The translations under genes were made by a program, and so were the position numbers. From positions 1-31,599 of IMG/VR virus record IMGVR_UViG_3300005513_000017: a stretch of DNA of 31,599 bases; one strand, written 5' to 3'. Below the pieces are notes generated by a model. It did not search any database. It worked only from the letters and a program-made list of their open reading frames with translations, and was not told the origin of the DNA. The stretch comes from a virus. Positions 4,268 to 30,112 of the stretch are shown piece after piece (the first letter of the stretch is position 1; each line of letters begins with the position of its first letter).

Positions 4268-6307
4268 CTAGCGCCTCGTCAGCTGGCGCTTGAGGCCGAA
4301 CTGCGTCCGCAGCGCCCGATCGGTGGCCGAGCCCGGCTTCACCTGCTGCGACAGCAACAGGTCGATGTTGATCGCGCCGTCCGCCCCGCGCGACACCTTG
4401 ACGTTCGAGGCATCGATCGGCTGGCCGGTATTGTTGTGCACGTTGACGGTCACCTTCGGCGCGCCGCCACCGCCAGCGCCGAACACGCCCAGCCGGCCAT
4501 TGCTGTCGCGGCCGATCGGGAAAATGCCCTCAGTCCCCGCCTCGCCGAATTGGCCGAGATTGGGCACCCCGCCCTTCGAAAACCGGAACATCGTCGGCGT
4601 GTCGATCAGCTGGTCGCTATAGCTGGCCAGGTCAGGCGAGCCATAGACACCGCCGAGAGCATTCTTCCCGATGCCGAGGCCCGACAGGATACTCCCGAGA
4701 ATACCACCAGTGCCGCCGGGGGTTTGTGCGGCGCCACCGAAGATGTTGCCTAGAGGGCCCTCGCCGAGCAGGGCTGCCTGCAACACGGCCTGCTCAAGTG
4801 CTTTGGCGACGTCTCCAAGCGCGTCAGTCAGCGACTTCGACCCGTCGATCAGCCCTTCTATGCCCTGCTCGGCCGTCTGGGCGAAAAACGAGGCCGCCTG
4901 GTTCGCCTCATCGATCGCTTTCTTTTGGTCGTAGTACGCATCTGCCGCGGCGATGATCCCTGCCGCGCGCTTGTCCGACCGGTCGATGCCGGCCTGTTCG
5001 AGTGCCTTGTTCTCTTCCAGTTCCTTGTCGGTGGCCGTGAGGTTGGCAGTCTGGTTACGCAGCGCAGCGGTGACCTTGTCGATCTTGTCGGACTGGTCGA
5101 ATTGGGCGGCATGGCCGCTCAAGTAGTCGCGAAGTTCCTGGGCGCGGTCGCCTATCGCCGTGTCATCGACGGCGGGCGGGGTCTTGCCGCTCCCCATCAG
5201 TTGATTGATGCGGTCCTGGTACTGGGCGGCCTGCTGGTAAAGCTGCTCTAGGTACCGCTTCTTGCCGGCGAGCTGCGACTGATTGAAGCCTTTGAGCGGC
5301 GACCAATCAGGCATGGCGTCGGTGGAGGTCTGCTGGCTCTTGATATCGGCATTGAGGTCGTGGATCTGGTTTTCCAGCATCACAAGCTGGTTTTGCAGCG
5401 GTGCAAGATGCACGCGGTCCCCGACCGCCTGGAACTGGTCGACAAGTGCGCCGACATTGACCGCCAACGCTGCCACCAAGTTCGCGGTGGAAACGAGCCC
5501 CGGCGCCAGGTCGAGGAGGGCAGCCTTGAACTGCACCTCGATGATCTTGGAGGCGATGTCGAATTTGTCTCCGAGGTCATCGGCTCTGCTGATGAGATCA
5601 TCCGGCACAATGATGCCGATGTCGCGCGCCTGAGCCTGCATTGCGGCGATCTTCACGCGACCACCGTCAAAAGCATCGCCAAGCTTGAGCATGTCGGCGC
5701 CGAAGGTGGCGGCGATGATGCTGGCCTTCTTCGACGCATCGGCCTCCTGGTCGATGGCGTCGGCCACGAGACGAATTCTCTCCTCCTGCGAGGTGGCCGT
5801 CTGCAGCTGAGCGAGCAACTCCGGGTCGACTGCCCGCAACTGCGCGAGCATCTTGCCGGTTCCAGCCTGAGCCTGCCCTACGTTCTTGTTGAACGTTTCG
5901 AGCGCTCCCGAAACCTGATCGATCCCGATGCCGCTGAGTTGGGCCTGATAGGCAATGCCTTGAAAAAACTCGGCATCAATGCCTGCCGCCTTTGCCTCAT
6001 CGTTGACTTTGGAGAAGCCCTCGAGGGCCGATTTCACTCCCTCCACGGCGCCCTCGAGGCTGAGAAACGCAGCAACCGGGCCAAGAACGCCGAGGGTAAG
6101 GGACCGGAAGAACTCCGTGCCCTTTTCCTTGCTCTGGTCGATTGTCCCAGCCAGGGCCGTCATGCCTGCGGACGCGGGCTTGCTGGAGGCCTCCAGCCGC
6201 TTGAGCGCGGCCTCACCCTCCTGGCCGAATTGAGCGAGAGCGCGTTTGGCGATATCGGCATCTTTTACCGCCAGCCGGATGCCAACTTCCTTAGTCTTTT
6301 CCGCCAT
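4268..6307 (-). CDS. Tail tape measure protein
   Basis: The protein is 679 aa from MAEKTKEVGIRLAV. The upstream in-frame ATG at 6382 would lie inside the preceding gene's coding sequence and is not favoured. The N-terminal 90 residues are helical and charged. Hydrophobic stretches lie near residues 75-100 (GVLGPVAAFLSLEGAVEG) and in the middle (STANLVAALAVNVGALV). Long Gln- and Ala-rich helical regions separate them. The C-terminus has the usual tape-measure ending: FGEAGTEGIFPIGRDSNG, a Gly-rich linker and VTVNVHNNTG. Family knowledge: the protein sets tail length and helps DNA enter the cell. Using the common rule of roughly 0.15 nm per residue, the tail would be about 100 nm, which is an estimate. 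The first 17 bases overlap the end of the frameshift extension. Confidence 0.9.
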   Translation of the reverse strand: MAEKTKEVGIRLAVKDADIAKRALAQFGQEGEAALKRLEASSKPASAGMTALAGTIDQSKEKGTEFFRSLTLGVLGPVAAFLSLEGAVEGVKSALEGFSKVNDEAKAAGIDAEFFQGIAYQAQLSGIGIDQVSGALETFNKNVGQAQAGTGKMLAQLRAVDPELLAQLQTATSQEERIRLVADAIDQEADASKKASIIAATFGADMLKLGDAFDGGRVKIAAMQAQARDIGIIVPDDLISRADDLGDKFDIASKIIEVQFKAALLDLAPGLVSTANLVAALAVNVGALVDQFQAVGDRVHLAPLQNQLVMLENQIHDLNADIKSQQTSTDAMPDWSPLKGFNQSQLAGKKRYLEQLYQQAAQYQDRINQLMGSGKTPPAVDDTAIGDRAQELRDYLSGHAAQFDQSDKIDKVTAALRNQTANLTATDKELEENKALEQAGIDRSDKRAAGIIAAADAYYDQKKAIDEANQAASFFAQTAEQGIEGLIDGSKSLTDALGDVAKALEQAVLQAALLGEGPLGNIFGGAAQTPGGTGGILGSILSGLGIGKNALGGVYGSPDLASYSDQLIDTPTMFRFSKGGVPNLGQFGEAGTEGIFPIGRDSNGRLGVFGAGGGGAPKVTVNVHNNTGQPIDASNVKVSRGADGAINIDLLLSQQVKPGSATDRALRTQFGLKRQLTRR

Positions 6308-6650
6308 CTTCTTCACCAGTGGTTCGGGGGCGTAGCGCGGCGACCAGGCCCCGCTCGCACGCAGCCAGGAGGTCTTCCGCAATTTCTTGGGGCGTTCCGG
6401 CGTCCGTCAGACGCTGGACCAGCCGCGACCAGTCAGCGCCAACGACGGTGCCCATTCCGCCGTAGAGGAGGCGCACCGGGCCGACCTTGAAGAGGCCCCA
6501 CGCAGCCTGCCCGTCTGCGCTCAGCGGGGCGTTGTCGTTGTACGGGCAGTCTCTCGGGTGTGTCGTTGCGCAGGCCGCCTGAGCGGCCTTGCACCCGTCG
6601 CAATACTTAGGGCCATCGCCGAAGTGCCACTCAGCGATGGCCCTTAGCCG
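6291..6650 (-). CDS. Tail assembly chaperone C-terminal extension, read by -1 frameshift (GT-like)
   Basis: This frame is open from the slippery site (6650-6656) to TAA at 6291-6293 and adds 119 codons to the chaperone, giving a fusion of about 258 aa. The start of the extension reads RLRAIAEWHFGDG and is then Cys-rich: YCDGCKAAQAAC followed by THPRDCPYND. That gives four Cys in about 20 residues and could bind a metal. After that comes VGPVRLLYGGMGTVVGADW and an acidic helical tail. There is no upstream ATG with a ribosome-binding site. Only a GTG at 6476 could start it alone, and that would discard the Cys motif. Family knowledge: in lambda and many siphophages the G and GT proteins chaperone the tape measure. 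Position directly before the tape measure gene fits. The frameshift itself is inferred from sequence signals. Confidence 0.75.
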   Translation of the reverse strand, partial: RLRAIAEWHFGDGPKYCDGCKAAQAACATTHPRDCPYNDNAPLSADGQAAWGLFKVGPVRLLYGGMGTVVGADWSRLVQRLTDAGTPQEIAEDLLAACERGLVAALRPRTTGEEDGGKD

Positions 6651-6656
6651 TTTCCC
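6610..6656 (-). promoter_or_regulatory. Programmed -1 ribosomal frameshift signal (slippery heptamer, spacer, stem-loop)
   Basis: Reading the minus strand, the chaperone frame ends GAG GGA AAC GGC TAA. The heptamer G GGA AAC (6656 to 6650) fits X XXY YYZ exactly in the zero frame and lets both tRNAs re-pair as GGG AAA. A 6-nt spacer (6649-6644, which includes the zero-frame stop) follows. Then comes a perfect 10-bp stem, GGGCCATCGC (6643-6634) with GCGATGGCCC (6619-6610), with a 14-nt loop that can pair further. After slipping, the new frame is open for 119 codons. Confidence 0.85.
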
Positions 6657-7066
6657 TCGGAATTGACCTGCTCGACCTGGTCGAAGTATCGCGCGCGGAA
6701 GTTCCGTGACACTTCCGCGTTTTCGAACAGATGGACGATCAGCGTCGGGTCGAATTCCAGCGGCGCGCCATCTTCATCGAGGACGTTCCGCCAGTCGTTT
6801 ACCACCAGCTCAGCCGTGCTGATCAGTAGAAGCGAGTTGTAAAGACCCTGCGCATTGTTGGGGTCAGACAGGTCCGGCAAACCCTCAATCGATCCGCCAA
6901 GCCGGGTGACCGCAGTCCCCACCTGCTTGAGATCGACAAGCAATTGGCCGGCCGCGGCGATCGCTGAATAGACGATCACCGACGTCAGCGGCATGCACCA
7001 AAGAGCGGCGCCGTTGCCGACTTCAATCCACTGAGGCGACCTATCCCGTCTGAGGCGTAGCGCCAT
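6644..7066 (-). CDS. Tail assembly chaperone (G-like)
   Basis: The protein is 140 aa, starting MALRLRRDRSPQWIEV at the ATG 7064-7066. AAAGGA lies 8 bases upstream. Longer in-frame starts would run through the palindromic region and the plus-strand small gene and are rejected. The chain is mostly helical, with SVIVYSAIAAAGQLLVDL in the middle and an acidic end. It lies between the tail tube gene and the tape measure gene, the usual place for the tail assembly chaperone, and ends in a -1 frameshift signal as in lambda G/GT. Family knowledge: the short form is made in excess and coats the tape measure with the frameshifted form. The call rests on position and the frameshift signal more than on sequence family. 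Confidence 0.8.
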   Translation of the reverse strand: MALRLRRDRSPQWIEVGNGAALWCMPLTSVIVYSAIAAAGQLLVDLKQVGTAVTRLGGSIEGLPDLSDPNNAQGLYNSLLLISTAELVVNDWRNVLDEDGAPLEFDPTLIVHLFENAEVSRNFRARYFDQVEQVNSEGNG

Positions 7067-7093
7067 TTCTATGGTCCTTTGCGAATGGACAAG

Positions 7094-7140: not shown

Positions 7141-7341
7141 ATGGCGCGGTGGTGGTTGCGGAAGCCGTCCTGGCGAAAGTCGCTGGCGGCGCGGACATCG
7201 CCGAAGCGTGCGCTTCGACGGGCGTTAGGGCTGAATGCGCCGCGCGGGTGGAGCTGGCTGACCAATCCAAAGCGCGCGGCCTACAATCGGGTCTATGGCC
7301 GCACCAGCGTCAGCTGGCGCAAGCTGTTCCGGCTGTTCTAG
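7141..7341 (+). CDS. Small basic protein with NPKRAAYNRVYGRTS motif, opposite strand to tail operon
   Basis: The protein is 66 aa and very basic. It starts MARWWLRKPSWRKSL and ends SWRKLFRLF. A strong ribosome-binding site, GGAGG at 7129-7133, lies 7 bases before the ATG. The second half carries APRGWSWLTNPKRAAYNRVY and GRTS. I recall small conserved proteins with a similar NPK(K/R)AAYNKVY core from other phages and bacteria, with unknown role; this is from memory and not checked. The stop TAG (7339-7341) interlocks with the tail-tube stop on the other strand, so the two genes converge on the 4 bases CTAG. Only a handful of genes here are on the plus strand, so it must have its own promoter. 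It could be a moron, a DNA- or RNA-binding protein, or a regulator. No function is assigned. Confidence 0.65.
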   Translation: MARWWLRKPSWRKSLAARTSPKRALRRALGLNAPRGWSWLTNPKRAAYNRVYGRTSVSWRKLFRLF

Positions 7342-8321
7342 TAGCTCGCGACGTCATTGCGCAGCGTCGCCTGCAGCATATAGGTCGCGGTGGCATCGTA
7401 GGCGGCGCGCCAGTTGATGGTCGTCTGGATACCTGCGACCCCCGAAATCTGCGTCTTCGGCCGCTCGAAGAACACCCGCGGCAGCGCGAACTTGAGCTGC
7501 CAGTTTGCGGCCGAACGCAGCGTGAAGCTGAGTTCGATCGCCGCCGGCGTGCCGGCATCGAGCAGATCGTCGATGGTGTGATCGGTGCCGAGCCGGAGAT
7601 CGAAGGAGCCGGTGAGGGTCCGGAGCCCTTCGTCAGCGCCGTCGATCATCATGTCGGACCGGATGGTCTGCACCGCCTCGAGGCTGCTCGAATAGGTCAC
7701 CTGTGCACCGGTGACATTGGCGAGGGCCACCCCGCCGATCTTCACGGCACCGGTCGCGTTGTCAAAAGGCTTGTAGGCGACGACGATCGGCGCGGCATCG
7801 CGGGCGCCGGTCGTGTCCTTGACCTCGGACTGGCCGATCATCGGCACGGTGATCAGCGCCCGGCCGTTGCGCTGCATTGGGAACGAAAAGCCGCCGGCCT
7901 TGGCGCCGAGCACGGTGCGCCACTTCGGCGTCGTGAGCTTGGGGTGCCCGGTCTGCACCGTCCAGGTGGCGAGGTCCTTGGTCGAGTTCCAGGTGTGGGT
8001 ATAGGTACCGTCGCCATTGTCGGTCGGGGTGCTCTCAGCGCCGAGCGCCATGCTGAGGTCCCAGCCGACGGCGCGGCTGCACATCGGGTGCACGATATCG
8101 CCCGACACATCGAAGGCGCCGACCGAGGGATCGCTGTCTTCCGGCGTTGCCTTGTTCCAGAGTTCATCCGCCTCGAGCGGCTGCGAGCCGGCGAGGCTCG
8201 ACGACTTGGTCAACAGGCGATGATAGACGCCGCCGCCCGATCCGTCCGGGGCCGAGTAGGGCGTCCCCTCTTTGGCGACGAGCTGAATGACATCGACGCC
8301 ACTGGCGCGAGGTTTGCTCAT
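7338..8321 (-). CDS. Major tail protein / tail tube protein
   Basis: The protein is 327 aa, beta-rich, with no signal peptide. The start MSKPRASGVDVIQLV is preceded by AAGGAG with a 6-base spacer, a strong site fitting an abundant structural protein. Features include LLTKSSSLAGSQPLEADEL near residues 36-55, and a GTYTHTWNSTKDLATWTVQ segment in the first half. The second half repeats the beta pattern: MMIDGADEGLRTLTGSFDL, then NWQLKFALPRVFFE. This two-domain layout is that of siphophage tail tube proteins. It lies between the tail-terminator-like gene and the tail chaperone, in standard tail order. Naming as tail tube is by family style plus position. Confidence 0.85.
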   Translation of the reverse strand: MSKPRASGVDVIQLVAKEGTPYSAPDGSGGGVYHRLLTKSSSLAGSQPLEADELWNKATPEDSDPSVGAFDVSGDIVHPMCSRAVGWDLSMALGAESTPTDNGDGTYTHTWNSTKDLATWTVQTGHPKLTTPKWRTVLGAKAGGFSFPMQRNGRALITVPMIGQSEVKDTTGARDAAPIVVAYKPFDNATGAVKIGGVALANVTGAQVTYSSSLEAVQTIRSDMMIDGADEGLRTLTGSFDLRLGTDHTIDDLLDAGTPAAIELSFTLRSAANWQLKFALPRVFFERPKTQISGVAGIQTTINWRAAYDATATYMLQATLRNDVASY

Positions 8322-10215: not shown

Positions 10216-12372
10216 TTACTGGCCTTTGTAGAAGCCGCGGAAATCGAGCGGGTTGACGCCCGCATCCATCCGAATCTTCAGCTCGGTGCCGTCGATGTTC
10301 CAGCCGTTCTGGCTTTCGACCACCGGCTCCTGGATGCCGTCGAGGTAGGTCACCTCGAGCGTGTCCCACTGGCTGGGATCGGCGGCGAAGTACCAGGTGT
10401 TCGCCGTGATGCGCTGATCGGTGATCGGCGTCACGAGGTTCTGCACCGTGTTGATGACGCCGGCGGTCTTGGTGTTGTCGACCGAGCCAGTCGACTGCAG
10501 CAGCTGCTTGGCGGTGAACTGGTAGCTCGACGACAGGAAGTATTTCGGCGCGATGTTGAGCGCGACGGCGTTCTTGTCGTTGTCCTGCTGCTTGCCCATG
10601 GCGATGACGGCCGCCTGCCAGGTCGCTTCGGACGGCGCTGCCAGCGCGCCAGCCAGGTTGCCGTGGTTCGCATGGAAGAATGCGACGGTGTCCGACCAGG
10701 CCGGCGGCGAGTTGACGAAGGCGTAGACGAGGTTGCCGATGGTGCGCTTGGCGGCGCGGCCCATCTTGACCGGCAGCGACCCGAGCAGGCTCAGGTCGTC
10801 GTTGATGATCGCCTGCCGGTTGATGCCGATCATCTTGCCGTAGGTCGCGATGACGACCGTCACGCCGCGATCGCCGATCTTGGCATAGCTGTATTCGCCG
10901 CTCTCAGTGAGCTGCGAAAGCGCGGGGAACAGGCCGAGATCGACACGGCTGATCGGCTTGAAGTCGGAGGCCGAACCGACCGACGTCCACAGCTGAAAGG
11001 TCTCTTCGGCCTCCTGGAAACCCTTGAGCGCCGACTTGTGAGCGACGTTCTGCAGGATGTAGGCAAAGTCCGAGGTCGAGGCGAGGCCCGCGCCGGCCAT
11101 CGTGAAGGCGGTCCCGACCATCAGCATGCGGTCCATCCGGCGCACGTCGTGCGCGCTGCGGCCGCCGCCGAGCATCACTGCCTCGCGGGCCAACTCCACA
11201 AGGCTCATGCCCGAGAACTCGTTGCGCTGCCCTTCCTTGTGACCAGTCTTGGCCATCAGCCCGAGCACCGCACCGGCGCGGAATTTGTCGCGGGCATCCT
11301 CGGTCACCTGATGGGTGCCGTTCGGCGCCCGGCCGCCGCTGGCCGACATTTCGGCGACGCGATCGATGATGGCGGCGAAAGCGGCTTCGCGGTTCGCCGC
11401 GGTGGCAACGATCGTGTTGGTGTCGAGCAGCGTGATGCCGGCCGTGGCGGCGCGGCCATAGACCTCGCGGATGTCGGCCACGGTCATCGTGGCGGCCGGC
11501 GCGGGCGTGACAGGCGTCGGGGTCGGCAGGCCAACGAGTTCGGCGACCTTGCCGCGAAGCGTCGTCTTGGCGGCATCCATCGTGGTCGCGCCGGCGAACA
11601 GCGTCTCGATCGCCTTGACGTCGAGGCCGATGCCCGCCGCCTGGTTGCACATGATCGTCACGTCTTCCGCGGGCGCCTTGAGCCGCGCGGCCATCAAAGC
11701 AATGAGCTCAGCGAGCGTCATGCCATTCTCCTTGGGTTGCGCGGCGGGTGCCGCCTTGGGCTGAAACATCGTGGCGTTGGCGACGGCCAGGTCGACCAGC
11801 GACGTCGGCGAGTTCCGGTAGAGCCGGAAATCGTAGAGGGAGGTGGAGGCCGATACGGTCGGCGCCGCCTCGTCGGCGAAGCCGGCGGCGACGGCCTCCT
11901 GGGCGTCGTACCAGGTCTCGGCCTGCATGATCGCCCGGGCGGCTTCCGGCGTGATGCCGGCGCGCGCGGCATAGATCGCCGCGACCGTATCGGCCAGCCG
12001 GTTGAGCTGGTCGGCGGCGTTTTGGTGGTCTTCAGCGTTCCCGCCGATGGCGACCATCGGATCGTGGATCATCATCAACGAGCCGACGTTCATGATGATG
12101 GTATCGCCAGCCATGGCGATGAGGCTGCCCGCAGACAGGGCCACACCGTCGACGACGATCGTCACCTTGCCGGGATAAGCCTTGAGGGCGTTGTAGATGG
12201 CGATGCCTTCGGGGGTGAAGCCGCCGGGAGAATTGAGCCGCACGACGATATCGCCACTCAGCTGGGTCAGCGCCAGGATGACATCGACGGCAGCAAAGTA
12301 ATCGACGTCCCAGTCGATCTCGCCGACCGTGCCATAGAGCACCAGCTCGCCGTTGATGATCAGCGGGTTCAT
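10216..12372 (-). CDS. Prohead ClpP-like protease / major capsid protein (gpT-like) fusion
   Basis: The protein is 718 aa with two parts. Residues 1-195 are an S14/ClpP-like head maturation protease. They include VVRLNSPGGFTPEGIAIYN, the nucleophile Ser80 in VALSAGSLIAMAGD, His103 in MMIHDP, and the WYDAQEAVAAGFAD segment. Residues 200-330 are an Ala/Pro-rich linker and helical scaffold-like segment. Residues 330-718 are a Mu gpT-like major head protein, ending MDAGVNPLDFRGFYKG. Family knowledge: such fused protease/capsid proteins are known in some phages, where the protease self-cleaves and frees capsid. The start has GAGG 5 bases upstream. A strong internal ribosome-binding site precedes Met218, so capsid could also be made alone (see separate entry). 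It lies directly after the portal gene. Confidence 0.9.
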   Translation of the reverse strand: MNPLIINGELVLYGTVGEIDWDVDYFAAVDVILALTQLSGDIVVRLNSPGGFTPEGIAIYNALKAYPGKVTIVVDGVALSAGSLIAMAGDTIIMNVGSLMMIHDPMVAIGGNAEDHQNAADQLNRLADTVAAIYAARAGITPEAARAIMQAETWYDAQEAVAAGFADEAAPTVSASTSLYDFRLYRNSPTSLVDLAVANATMFQPKAAPAAQPKENGMTLAELIALMAARLKAPAEDVTIMCNQAAGIGLDVKAIETLFAGATTMDAAKTTLRGKVAELVGLPTPTPVTPAPAATMTVADIREVYGRAATAGITLLDTNTIVATAANREAAFAAIIDRVAEMSASGGRAPNGTHQVTEDARDKFRAGAVLGLMAKTGHKEGQRNEFSGMSLVELAREAVMLGGGRSAHDVRRMDRMLMVGTAFTMAGAGLASTSDFAYILQNVAHKSALKGFQEAEETFQLWTSVGSASDFKPISRVDLGLFPALSQLTESGEYSYAKIGDRGVTVVIATYGKMIGINRQAIINDDLSLLGSLPVKMGRAAKRTIGNLVYAFVNSPPAWSDTVAFFHANHGNLAGALAAPSEATWQAAVIAMGKQQDNDKNAVALNIAPKYFLSSSYQFTAKQLLQSTGSVDNTKTAGVINTVQNLVTPITDQRITANTWYFAADPSQWDTLEVTYLDGIQEPVVESQNGWNIDGTELKIRMDAGVNPLDFRGFYKGQ
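11719..11733 (-). promoter_or_regulatory. Internal ribosome-binding site and start codon inside the protease/capsid fusion
   Basis: AAGGAG at 11733-11728 on the minus strand lies 6 bases before an in-frame ATG (11721-11719) that is Met218 of the fusion, reading MTLAELIALMAARL. A product from here would be 501 aa: the scaffold-like helix plus the gpT-like capsid, without the protease. The site resembles the nested C/Nu3 starts of lambda. Use is inferred. Confidence 0.6.
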
Positions 12373-14188: not shown

Positions 14189-15133
14189 TCACGGGGAGGG
14201 AATGGCCGCATGCTCCAAATGTTCAATTTCGACGACTACCGGATCGATCTTTCGCTCAGTTGATCCACCTATTGGCAAAAGGAACTCCGTCAACCTGAGA
14301 AGCAGAACGCTTTCAACACGTCTCCGTCGAGCGGCTACAACCAAAAATATTGGCCCACCGAAGCCCACGAACAGTTTAACTTCGCAGATCGCGTACTGAT
14401 ATACGTTGTCACCAGTCAATTGCGTCCAATGAATTCTTACTTCATGAAGCAACCCAGGTGCCTGCGGAATCTCTCGTTTATCGTTCTCGGATACCTCTTC
14501 ACCGCCAACGTAGTATTCAGCGAAATTTCCAGTCAGAATTACATTTTCCAGCAGCGGCTCGAACGGTTCTGTCTCATGAAAATATAACATTCCATGAGCT
14601 ATTTTGGCCGCAAGCCTCATGTGATTTACCGGGTCTATTTTCACACGAAAGCGACCGCTTACGCGTTTGGCCGCTTTCACCAGCCCACTAATGTTGGCAA
14701 TTTTCAAACGAAAATTGGAAATGCCTGCCATGGGGTCGCGCCCGGCCAGAAGGCCCGGCAACTCAAATATCCAGCTGACCAGCACAGCAGGCATCTCATG
14801 AAAGTCGACATGGCGCTTTCTCTCGACGCCGTCCTCGTCCGGCACCCATATTTCCATCTTCTTCGGACCGCGCTTTGTCCTCGACTGGACATTCAAACGG
14901 CGGCGAAAGCCAAAGAACGATGAGTACGCAATATCGTTTTCGAAGCCGCGTGTTATCTTGGAACAACGGCCACAGCTAGACTGCGGCAGTACATAGGCCC
15001 CCGCCATAAAATACGGAATGATATGCTCATCTGAGAGATTTGCGCGGGCCCCGCAATAGATACAGAACCCCTGTGCCTTGCCGTAGTGCGTCTGTAAAGG
15101 ACGAAGATACTCTTGGACTGCTTTCTCGCTCAT
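14189..15133 (-). CDS. HNH endonuclease domain protein, AT-richer insert in late operon
   Basis: The protein is 314 aa from MSEKAVQEYLRPLQ; longer in-frame starts would run into the SGNH gene. The nuclease domain is N-terminal: Cys24-x2-Cys27 (FCIYCG), SDEHIIP with His37, Cys54-x2-Cys57 (CGRC), then GFEND with Asn66. This is a zinc-stabilised HNH (beta-beta-alpha metal) fold. The C-terminal 230 residues match no family I know; they could bind DNA or another partner. The coding sequence is visibly AT-richer than its neighbours, with many A- and T-ending codons, which suggests recent transfer. It lies between the SGNH gene and a terminator. Possible roles are a homing endonuclease, a superinfection or host-defence nuclease, or a late packaging helper; the packaging role is less likely because HNH packaging proteins are usually short and lie beside terminase. 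Confidence 0.8.
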   Translation of the reverse strand: MSEKAVQEYLRPLQTHYGKAQGFCIYCGARANLSDEHIIPYFMAGAYVLPQSSCGRCSKITRGFENDIAYSSFFGFRRRLNVQSRTKRGPKKMEIWVPDEDGVERKRHVDFHEMPAVLVSWIFELPGLLAGRDPMAGISNFRLKIANISGLVKAAKRVSGRFRVKIDPVNHMRLAAKIAHGMLYFHETEPFEPLLENVILTGNFAEYYVGGEEVSENDKREIPQAPGLLHEVRIHWTQLTGDNVYQYAICEVKLFVGFGGPIFLVVAARRRRVESVLLLRLTEFLLPIGGSTERKIDPVVVEIEHLEHAAIPSP

Positions 15134-15180
15134 CGCCCAAGAATAGACGCTTGCTGCGAAATTTCCAAGGCGGCGGAACG

Positions 15181-16920
15181 CTACCTCACGTCTAGCCCCC
15201 ATACGGCGACGGTCGAAGCACCGTCGCCGGCATAGTTGTCGTTGCCGGAGGCATCGGCCATGCGGAAGTACAGATAGGGATTTGCGGCCATGCCTGCCGC
15301 CATCGTCAAAGTAAGGGCGATCTTCCACCAACTGCCAACCGCCGTGATCGTCCGCGCCCCGACCGTGAAGCCCGTGCCACCGGACGAATAGATTTCGGCG
15401 CCGGTCCCGAGGTTGACCGCCAGTCGACCGTCCGTGAAGGTATCGGAGCGCTGCACCATGAGCATTATGTTGCGGGAGCCAACCCCTCGCTTGGCATAGA
15501 AGGTGAAGGTCTTGGTGGTGCTCGCGAGGGCAAGGGTCAGCTGCTTATAGGAGTCGTGGCTGTTGGTGCTGCCATCCTCCTTGAGCGTTGCGGCCGGGCT
15601 GGCGAAGTTCGGCGAGAGCATCGACCACGGCGTGTGAGCCGCCTGTTGGCCAGACCAGCCGTCCAACAGCATGTAGGACGTGTATAGGCCACCGCTCGGA
15701 TACTCCGTCGCCAACTCCGCAGGGTCTGACGTCGGCAGGCCGGAGGCTGCATAGTCGAAACCGCAGCCGGCGATCAGGGCGACGTTGCCCGCGTTGCTTT
15801 CGTGGATGAGCGAGCCGTCACCCTCGGCCACACAATAGGTCGCGTTGACCCAGATATGCCCCGCCGTCTCGGCCACGATGGCAGGGTCGAACACGCCGAG
15901 GAACCCGCTCGGCACAGATCGCGCCAGCGCGTTGAACGCCTGCCGATACGTATCGTTAGCCGATAGGTTGACGTTGCCGCCGATTGTCCATGGATCAAGG
16001 GTCTTGACCACGGCAGGCACGCCGACCGCCGTGCGGACGGTCTGCACATCCTCCATGGCTTGGGCGCCAGTGCGACCGTTGGCGATCGTGTCGTTCACGC
16101 CAAAGCCGATGAAGAACCGGCTCGACCGCCGGGCTATCGCCGTACGTCGAGCCGATTTCGTGCTGTCGGCCCATTCCGCGGCCATCCCGCCGGGCGTTGC
16201 GAGATTGTGGTACGCGGCGCGCCGGCCGACCAGTCGGGCAATCTGACCGGTATGCCCGAGCACGTCGAAAGGGGCGTCTCGGAGCGCGCTATCGCGGCTG
16301 TCCGAGCCGATGGCCACCGTCTCGCGGGTGGTATTGGCCTCGATCGAGACCGGGAAATACCCGTCGCGGGTTCCCTGATAAGTGTCGCTGAAGGCGGTGG
16401 TCGTGCCAGTCAGGTCGGTGACGGCCGCGCCATATTGAAAAATGTCGCCGGCGAGATAGTCGCAGGCGTACTGGCTATAGATCACCCCGGCGCCGAAATT
16501 GCCCCAGAAGCGGACCAGGGCGCTCGTGTAGCGAAGGATGTTGATGGCCGGGTTGACGAAATCGAGTTCGCCACCATCCGCCGCGCTTGCCGTGTCCGAT
16601 CCGTCGGCGTGGGCGTAGAGGCGGGTGAGCTGCAGGACGCCCGATCGGTCCCAGTAAAGTATTGAGCCGCGCGCCGTCGCGCTCGCGCCGGGTAGGTGTT
16701 CACCGTCGGCCGCCGGATCGGCCCGGTAGTTCGGCCACCGGATGCGAAAAGACCCATCCTTCACATCGTCCATGAAGGTGTGGCGGGTTTGTGCCATGAC
16801 CTGCTTATTGGTCGACCCCGCCGACTGATACGCCAGGCGAGTCCGGCCCGCGACGGCTCCGAACCGCTTCGCGGTCTGGGCTAGGCCGACGCTGCGCCGA
16901 TGCGGCAGAGCGAGGCTCAA
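15181..16920 (-). CDS. SGNH-type hydrolase with C-terminal beta-sandwich domain (virion appendage candidate)
   Basis: The protein is 579 aa using the TTG start at 16920, which overlaps the upstream stop as TTGA; an ATG at 16797 (MAQTRHTF) is the alternative. SGNH blocks can be seen: AIGSDSRDSA (Asp207, Ser208 nucleophile), FFIGFGVNDTIANG (Gly274, Asn276, Asp277) and DGSLIHESNAGN (His373). Residues about 430-579 form a beta-rich domain ending YLYFRMADASGND and VAVWGLDVR, the style of carbohydrate-binding or fibre C-termini in phages. Family knowledge: SGNH enzymes in phage fibres often de-esterify surface polysaccharides. The neighbour is a putative virion surface protein, so an enzymatic decoration or side fibre is plausible. 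It is unusual that it sits after terminase rather than in the tail-fibre region. Confidence 0.8.
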   Translation of the reverse strand: MSLALPHRRSVGLAQTAKRFGAVAGRTRLAYQSAGSTNKQVMAQTRHTFMDDVKDGSFRIRWPNYRADPAADGEHLPGASATARGSILYWDRSGVLQLTRLYAHADGSDTASAADGGELDFVNPAINILRYTSALVRFWGNFGAGVIYSQYACDYLAGDIFQYGAAVTDLTGTTTAFSDTYQGTRDGYFPVSIEANTTRETVAIGSDSRDSALRDAPFDVLGHTGQIARLVGRRAAYHNLATPGGMAAEWADSTKSARRTAIARRSSRFFIGFGVNDTIANGRTGAQAMEDVQTVRTAVGVPAVVKTLDPWTIGGNVNLSANDTYRQAFNALARSVPSGFLGVFDPAIVAETAGHIWVNATYCVAEGDGSLIHESNAGNVALIAGCGFDYAASGLPTSDPAELATEYPSGGLYTSYMLLDGWSGQQAAHTPWSMLSPNFASPAATLKEDGSTNSHDSYKQLTLALASTTKTFTFYAKRGVGSRNIMLMVQRSDTFTDGRLAVNLGTGAEIYSSGGTGFTVGARTITAVGSWWKIALTLTMAAGMAANPYLYFRMADASGNDNYAGDGASTVAVWGLDVR

Positions 16921-28921: not shown

Positions 28922-30112
28922 TCATCGTGAAGCGCTCTCCATCATGCGAACAAGCTCAGCTGCGCGGGTGGAACCGCGTGCGGCGAGGCGAGCGACGAGA
29001 GTGCGGAACGCATGCGCCGCTTCCAGACTGACAACCCCGTTCCCGAGCAGGCGAAGCCGGTCGACGCGGGCGGCGTGAGGGCCAGAGAGGTCCACCCGGG
29101 CGGCCACCCCATCAGCCATTCGACGAACAGCGGGTTCAAGGTCCGGCGAATGTGCGAGTGCTCCTCGCCATCCGTCGAGATCGGCCGGTCCGGGAGGGAA
29201 AAGGCCAAGGCCTGCCCTTCCATCGTCAGTCGCGTCTGGCTGGGATCGCCCCTGTCCCGGGTGTAGCCGCCGCTCACCGTCCGAGGCGTCTCCCACTTCA
29301 ACGCCTGCGCCACCAGCGGAGGATTGCCTCGACCGAAGGCCTGGTTCGGGCCGCCCTTGAGCGCGTCCGACGTCATTGGCGTCGCCCAGCGCTCCGCCAC
29401 CCAATCCAGCATGTCGTTTCGGAGTTTGCCGTCCGATCGAACTACTGCGTTGTGATCGCGTGTCGTCGGGGTCGGCCAGTGCTCCGCCATGTCGTAGAGA
29501 CTGACCGTGTGAAACGCCGCAGAACGCTTCTCCGGAGGTTGGCCCACACCGCTCGTGGGATTGGTCGGCGTCGGCCACGCCGAGGATGAAGACGCGCTGG
29601 CGCTCGTGGCTGGCGCCAACTTCCGCCGCGCTGAAAAGTCCGATCTCGACCGCAAAACCAAGTCGGCGAAGGTCTCGCCAAACCCGCTCGGCGCCAGCGA
29701 TTTCGTCAGCCCCAGCCGAGAGCATGCCGGCGACGTTCTCGATGAGCACGAGCCACGGCCGGGCATGGACGATGATGCGTCGGGCTGTTGACCAGAGGTC
29801 CCGGCTGTCGAGGCTGCCGCGCTTGCGGCCGGCCATGCTGTGCGGCTGACACGGGATGCCGCCAATGAGCCCATCCACGAGGCCACGCCAGGGGCGGCCA
29901 TCGAAGGTTCGGGCATCCGACCACACAGCTGCCGGAGCCAGGAGACCCTGTTCCATCGCTGCAACCAGGTGCGCGACGGCGAAGGCTTCCCTCTCCACCA
30001 TAACGACGCTGCGAGCGCCTGGCAGAGCGAGTTCGATGCCGAGGTCGAGCCCTCCGCCACCAGTGCAGATGCTGAGGAGGTCGAGTGTTTGGGCAGGTAG
30101 AGCCACATTCAT
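28922..30112 (-). CDS. C5-cytosine DNA methyltransferase (C-terminal half also open in +1 frame)
   Basis: The protein is 396 aa. Catalytic motifs are all present in the N-terminal half: motif I SICTGGGGLDLG (14-25), motif IV GGIPCQPHS with catalytic Cys88, motif VI ENVAG (125-129) and motif VIII ERQRVFILG (170-178). The C-terminus has a motif X-like RLLGNGVV (354-361). Between them lie repeats beginning ADA or ADP/GDA at intervals of about 30-33 codons, where the target-recognition region should be. Third-position G/C is high up to about 29580 but drops after that, while the +1 frame becomes rich in G/C-ending codons (see separate entry). Family knowledge: phage C5 methyltransferases mask phage DNA from restriction. 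The start overlaps the ParB-like stop as ATGA. Confidence 0.85.
   Translation of the reverse strand: MNVALPAQTLDLLSICTGGGGLDLGIELALPGARSVVMVEREAFAVAHLVAAMEQGLLAPAAVWSDARTFDGRPWRGLVDGLIGGIPCQPHSMAGRKRGSLDSRDLWSTARRIIVHARPWLVLIENVAGMLSAGADEIAGAERVWRDLRRLGFAVEIGLFSAAEVGASHERQRVFILGVADADQSHERCGPTSGEAFCGVSHGQSLRHGGALADPDDTRSQRSSSIGRQTPKRHAGLGGGALGDANDVGRAQGRPEPGLRSRQSSAGGAGVEVGDASDGERRLHPGQGRSQPDATDDGRAGLGLFPPGPADLDGWRGALAHSPDLEPAVRRMADGVAARVDLSGPHAARVDRLRLLGNGVVSLEAAHAFRTLVARLAARGSTRAAELVRMMESASR
28942..29590 (-). other. Alternative (+1) coding frame over the methyltransferase C-terminal half
   Basis: In the +1 frame the DNA is open to a stop at 28942 and reads like another known type of phage cytosine-methyltransferase C-terminus. 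It has WPTPT, WPTPT, WATPM and WETPR repeats, then LNPLFVEWLMGWPPGWT, and an ending PPAQLSLFA whose QLSLF resembles a beta-clamp-binding motif. At 29102-29176, 22 of 25 codons in this frame end in G or C, against 11 of 25 in the main frame. The catalytic half is not in this frame, so the reading would require a +1 shift near 29560-29590 or separate initiation. It could be frameshifting, an indel, or dual coding. Confidence 0.5.

Follow-up and report, generated by a model that had tools for sequence, protein, structure and literature searches.

Locus architecture and the predicted frameshift site

The window, that is the whole stretch of 31,599 nucleotides of viral DNA that was analysed, carries on its minus strand two reading frames which are designated here as the G half and the T half. 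The G half (6644–7066) is an open reading frame of 140 amino acids with its ATG at 7066, and the sequence AAAGGA, located 8 nt before this ATG (7075–7080), is the likely ribosome-binding site. A comparison of the G half with PHROG revealed similarity to phrog_313 (Tail assembly chaperone; E 7e-4), a family which was also matched by 21 of the 23 aligned G halves (best E 1.2e-17); a Pfam search with the G half gave nothing useful. The gene directly upstream encodes a tail tube protein (7338–8321, minus strand; PF18906 Phage_tube_2, E 5e-31). Directly downstream lies the gene of a tape measure protein (4268–6307, minus strand; phrog_10574, E 4e-31, and other PHROG tape measure families), which shares its first 17 nt with the end of the T half. 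The family assignment, the gene order tail tube – chaperone – tape measure and annotated homologues in Rhodobacter phages agree with the identification as a tail chaperone that an earlier note had made from the letters alone.

Structure prediction for the G half resulted in a model with a pLDDT of 92.5. Foldseek matches in BFVD that bear a name (E 1e-3 to 0.1) were frequently chaperones, either for tail assembly or of the pre-tape measure type, and no informative name was more frequent among the viral matches of this model than tail chaperone; the scores were modest. Superposition with the HK97 chaperone (2ob9) reached a Z of only 3.5, with an rmsd of 6.1 over 90 residues. Among the other genes on the minus strand, a ClpP-type protease and the major capsid protein share one open reading frame of 718 amino acids (10216–12372; PF00574, PF25209). 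An open reading frame with a weak match to HNH endonucleases (14189–15331; PF14279) stands among the structural genes and is possibly a homing-type insertion.

The G half ends with the codons GAG GGA AAC GGC TAA, which are followed on the minus strand by GGGCCATCGC, TGAGTGGCACTTCG and GCGATGGCCC. These codons contain the slippery heptamer G_GGA_AAC (6650–6656), placing the slip site at residue 139 of the G half. According to sequence and folding, the stem arms GGGCCATCGC (6634–6643) and GCGATGGCCC (6610–6619) form a perfect stem of 10 bp that begins 6 nt past the heptamer and is lengthened to 11 bp by an extra A-U pair between 6644 and 6609; the zero-frame stop TAA (6644–6646) lies in the spacer between heptamer and stem. 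The T half (6291–6650) extends the -1 frame by 119 codons and a stop, and a fusion of both halves would comprise 258 residues as compared to 140 for the short form. Heptamer, stem, stop in the spacer and the open -1 frame down to 6291 had all been described in the earlier note, and each was found again at exactly the positions given here. The same note had let the short form end two codons past the slippery site, which is correct if the stop is counted as the second codon; the only sense codon after the site is GGC.

The 60 nt after the heptamer showed a folding energy of -32.7 kcal/mol, compared to -19.9 ± 2.7 kcal/mol for dinucleotide shuffles (z -4.8). Canonical heptamers by themselves are frequent, with about 20 on the minus strand of the window, so it is the stem and, most of all, the conservation in relatives that carry the weight of the evidence. 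An Rfam search at E 5 returned matches at chance level only.

Conservation of heptamer and hairpin

The earlier note had proposed a comparison of related phages as a check on both parts of the signal. Relatives were collected by motif-only scans, in which solely the codons of the peptide WHFGxGxxYCxxC were searched in viral contigs and bacterial genome contigs; the matches listed are samples. An earlier DNA scan with a relaxed heptamer had yielded more than 100 homologues, which were not counted as proof because the pattern itself demanded AAA. Although the heptamer was not asked for in the motif-only scans, a canonical X_XXY_YYZ heptamer stood exactly 27 nt upstream of the WHFG Trp codon in 205 of the 209 distinct contexts among the matches listed, these contexts being distinct yet not phylogenetically independent. 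The four exceptions are a chance match (L158), a locus without heptamer (L161), a locus adjoining masked bases (L197) and L307. In L307, GTGAAAC replaces GGGAAAC at 6490–6496 of the reverse complement and creates a zero-frame TGA inside the slip site, which may reflect a loss of the signal or a base error.

Among the matches listed, the peptide encoded over the slip site is EGN or EKN and rarely EKK. The codons of EGN were GAG GGA AAC in 76 of 76 cases and those of EKN were GAA AAA AAC in 115 of 115, even though GGA accounts for just 5% of the Gly codons slightly further downstream. Judged by this codon usage, conservation of the amino acids cannot account for the frozen synonymous sites at the heptamer. 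A zero-frame stop one codon past the heptamer, mostly as GGC TGA or GGC TAA, was present in 152 distinct contexts including the window, which is about half of those among the matches listed; most of the other contexts run on for about 20–57 codons. As the hairpin is kept in both layouts, the early stop lies outside the essential signal. A conserved Shine-Dalgarno-like stimulator upstream of the slip site was looked for and was not found.

For the hairpin, 137 representatives, each more than 10% different from the others, were subjected to folding and recoding tests. The minimum-energy fold placed the Trp-His codons in a hairpin near the heptamer in 136 of them, that is at the position expected from the window. 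In the recoding test the -1-frame protein was fixed and synonymous codons were redrawn from family usage. None of 200 such recodings reached the stability of the window hairpin (z -3.4), which is hence more stable than protein coding demands. Over the 137 representatives the mean z was -1.84, with 48% of the values below -2; the result was strong for the window, moderate for many relatives and weak at A_AAA_AAA and A_AAA_AAG sites.

Covariation was probed with the coding constraints kept by exchanging stem arms between phages, and this mixing destroyed stability. Native hairpins of 44 diverse members had a mean of -23.7 kcal/mol, compared to -19.8 kcal/mol for arm-swapped chimeras (z -9.5; 0 of 10,000 permutations), and with 136 members native hairpins were again more stable than chimeras (z -13.9). 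Each arm of the window stem found its best partner in the other, above any other phage's arm. Thus, the stem arms co-vary between phages. Covariation counted in one fixed register was weak, with 63% of the cells paired as compared to 61% after shuffling (17/500), and RNAalifold returned no consensus structure for 33 diverse sequences, apparently owing to the use of two stem registers that differ by one base: slides 0 and +1 gave 63% and 59% paired cells, other slides about 40%. The signal in the window is more than a product of chance.

One may ask whether the hairpin mainly serves another role, as a terminator or mRNA stabiliser, while the heptamer alone drives frameshifting; a GC-rich hairpin of 10 bp that comes after the stop codon in the window would suit such a role. 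However, a U run is absent 3' of the window hairpin, the hairpin is itself part of a conserved coding region, and relatives with a zero frame running on for at least 30 codons have kept it as well. We therefore regard this explanation as very unlikely.

The cysteine-rich T half and the DUF7697 family

The T half of the window contains RLRAIAEWHFG.G..YC..C. Homologues were found in hundreds of loci; common to them are R(L/I) at the junction, the motif WHFG.G..YC..C after it and finally two further Cys residues. Four Cys residues were invariant in two T-half alignments (A2 and A4). They correspond to residues 156, 159, 166 and 174 of the fusion, are encoded between 6602 and 6546 on the minus strand and all fall inside the -1-frame T half, as expected for the Cys-rich extension of the earlier note. 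This C4 pattern was present in 258 of 262 distinct complete T sequences among the matches listed, the first two Cys having been fixed by the search motif itself. The four invariant residues suggest that the T half may hold a small metal site of the C4 type, the metal probably being zinc.

T halves of relatives matched PF24752 (DUF7697) in 14 of 19 cases with E <0.01 (best 1.7e-21) and phrog_11212 in 13 of 19 (best 4.2e-20), both listed as being of unknown function; two aligned T halves matched DUF1799. The T half of the window scored 14.8 bits against DUF7697 (E 0.03), which is below the curated cut-off of 27, but as 14 of the 19 T halves match the family, it can be considered on this basis a divergent DUF7697 homologue that is not filed as a member. 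The Pfam model comprises 52 positions, and the weak alignment of the window begins after the Cys region, as would be expected if public gene models begin at a later start codon. An NCBIfam search with the T half gave nothing, comparison of the T-half model (pLDDT 86) with PDB and BFVD gave no significant structural match, and a literature search covering DUF7697 and the occurrence of zinc in tail chaperones found nothing bearing on the T half. Tape measure chaperones make up several of the weak BFVD matches of this model, a suggestive finding at most.

Heptamer and stem would be incidental if T were a separate gene whose own translation start is coupled to where the G half ends. In favour of such an arrangement, the zero-frame stop is placed where a coupled restart could happen, and the homologues in a Synechococcus and a Nostoc phage are annotated as two open reading frames. 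In the window, however, the T frame runs for 58 codons past the slip site before its first ATG, GTG or TTG, namely GTG 6476, which lies beyond all four Cys residues, and upstream of the slip site this frame is open for 41 codons without any of these start codons. Among the matches listed, 164 of 277 loci have no start codon in the stretch from the last stop of the T frame to WHFG, and the T frame is closed five or fewer codons upstream of the slip site in at least 36 loci. A separate gene would moreover leave the codon-level freezing of the heptamer unexplained, and we hold this arrangement to be extremely unlikely. Since many T halves lack a start of their own and the frame of some is closed so near to the slip site, the heptamer or its immediate neighbourhood must, as far as the reading frames tell, be the point of entry. 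DUF7697 and phrog_11212 look like the part of tail assembly chaperones that frameshifting adds.

Probable programmed frameshifting and comparison with known systems

The conservation of heptamer and hairpin in relatives and the T half without its own start codon strongly support the frameshift proposed in the earlier note, and programmed -1 ribosomal frameshifting as in lambda G/GT is very probably how the gene in the window is expressed. On this reading, GGA AAC GGC TAA would be decoded by the majority of ribosomes, which would then release the chaperone of 140 residues. With the P- and A-site tRNAs on GGA AAC, a ribosome would be hindered by the hairpin six bases downstream, and in a minority of passes both tRNAs would move back one base onto GGG AAA, which would put the TAA out of frame and add 119 more codons to yield the fusion of 258 residues. 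By analogy with known tail chaperones, the short form may coat the tape measure protein, and the T half of the rarer long form may recruit tail tube subunits and start assembly of the tube.

Alternatively, an indel or a sequencing error might have split a single ancestral gene, whose frames would then only look programmed. Frame breaks are possible in the window, as a C5-cytosine methylase gene on the minus strand (28922–30112) seemingly changes frame, but the same -1 transition occurs at the same codon in more than 200 distinct loci from isolates and metagenomes, and two further contigs of the same virus are identical at the frameshift region; the probability of a broken gene is close to nil. 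Within the methylase gene, Pfam covers only residues 12–181 of the frame from 30112, and a part resembling a typical methylase C-terminus (TPTTRDHN..., LNPLFVEWLMGWPPGWT) is found in the +1 frame (open reading frame 28942–30108), which may be due to error, decay or a shift. Transcriptional instead of ribosomal slippage, conceivable in relatives with GAA AAA AAC where RNA polymerase might slip on a run of seven A, can practically be dismissed, because long homopolymers are absent from the GGGAAAC site that the window and much of the family have, and the hairpin is kept in both the GGGAAAC and the seven-A groups.

Ribosomal frameshifting at this site can be compared with several described systems. 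The lambda heptamer GGGAAAG has the GGGAAA core in common with the heptamer of the window, which ends with C instead of G. The window further differs from lambda by the perfect hairpin six bases downstream and the stop in the spacer, and its T half by the four invariant Cys residues; no sequence relation between this T half and lambda T emerged. Shared with lambda gpG/gpGT are the gene order, a heptamer close to where G ends, a T half in the -1 frame and the tape measure gene downstream (PMC5009743). In lambda, gpG and gpGT are produced at about 30:1, and the G part binds the tape measure whereas the T part binds the tail tube subunit (PMC5009743). At two chaperone genes of the HK97-like kind, frameshifting of 6–7% has been measured (PMC3711429). 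The g-t frameshift of the haloarchaeal virus HCTV-1 uses the identical heptamer G_GGA_AAC (PMC5009743); the host of this virus is archaeal, and the likeness noted concerns the heptamer.

The closest annotated phages were eleven Rhodobacter capsulatus phages with about 28–33% identity. In the three examined, RcKemmy, RcHotPocket and RcKvothe, a chaperone gene and a joined version in two pieces are annotated; the frameshift in the RcC phages is already recognised by annotators, and the RcC genome paper describes a programmed frameshift as usual for these chaperone genes (PMC8601537). The RcC phages have homologous G and T halves, GGGAAAC and the same spacing and hairpin geometry. They differ by a stem of other bases which are nevertheless paired (GCGCCCTTGC/GCAAGGGCGC), a zero-frame tail of about 30 codons past the heptamer and another spacing of the Cys residues in the T half.

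For the phage in the window the kind of mechanism has long been known; what is added is the evidence of conservation across the family and the link to DUF7697 and phrog_11212. A predicted recoding event thereby gains family-wide support in a large and mostly unannotated phage family, and families of unknown function obtain a likely role as the frameshift-encoded half of tail assembly chaperones. The Cys module is predicted to be reached only by frameshifting. The proposal can be widened to a mostly alphaproteobacterial lineage of tailed phages in which a C4 module for tail recruitment, probably binding zinc, would be accessible only via -1 frameshifting, DUF7697 and phrog_11212 would represent a truncated gene model of the product, and hairpin and WHFG-Cys peptide would be co-encoded in the same few dozen bases; we judge the chances of this wider proposal to be even. 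With their many natural variants of heptamer and hairpin, the relatives also lend themselves to the study of bacterial frameshifting.

For annotation, a joined gene is indicated where GAG-GGA-AAC or GAA-AAA-AAC occurs and the codons for WHFG begin 27 nt downstream, counted from the heptamer's first base. The same arrangement, with A_AAA_AAA as the heptamer, occurs in Synechococcus phage Sc-Yong805-1 and Nostoc phage Nsp-JY21, where two ordinary open reading frames are annotated. In both (L006 and L007, 1624–1857) the annotated T start overlaps the G stop and the WHFG-Cys region is omitted; the annotated T half is likely a mis-annotated frameshift product.
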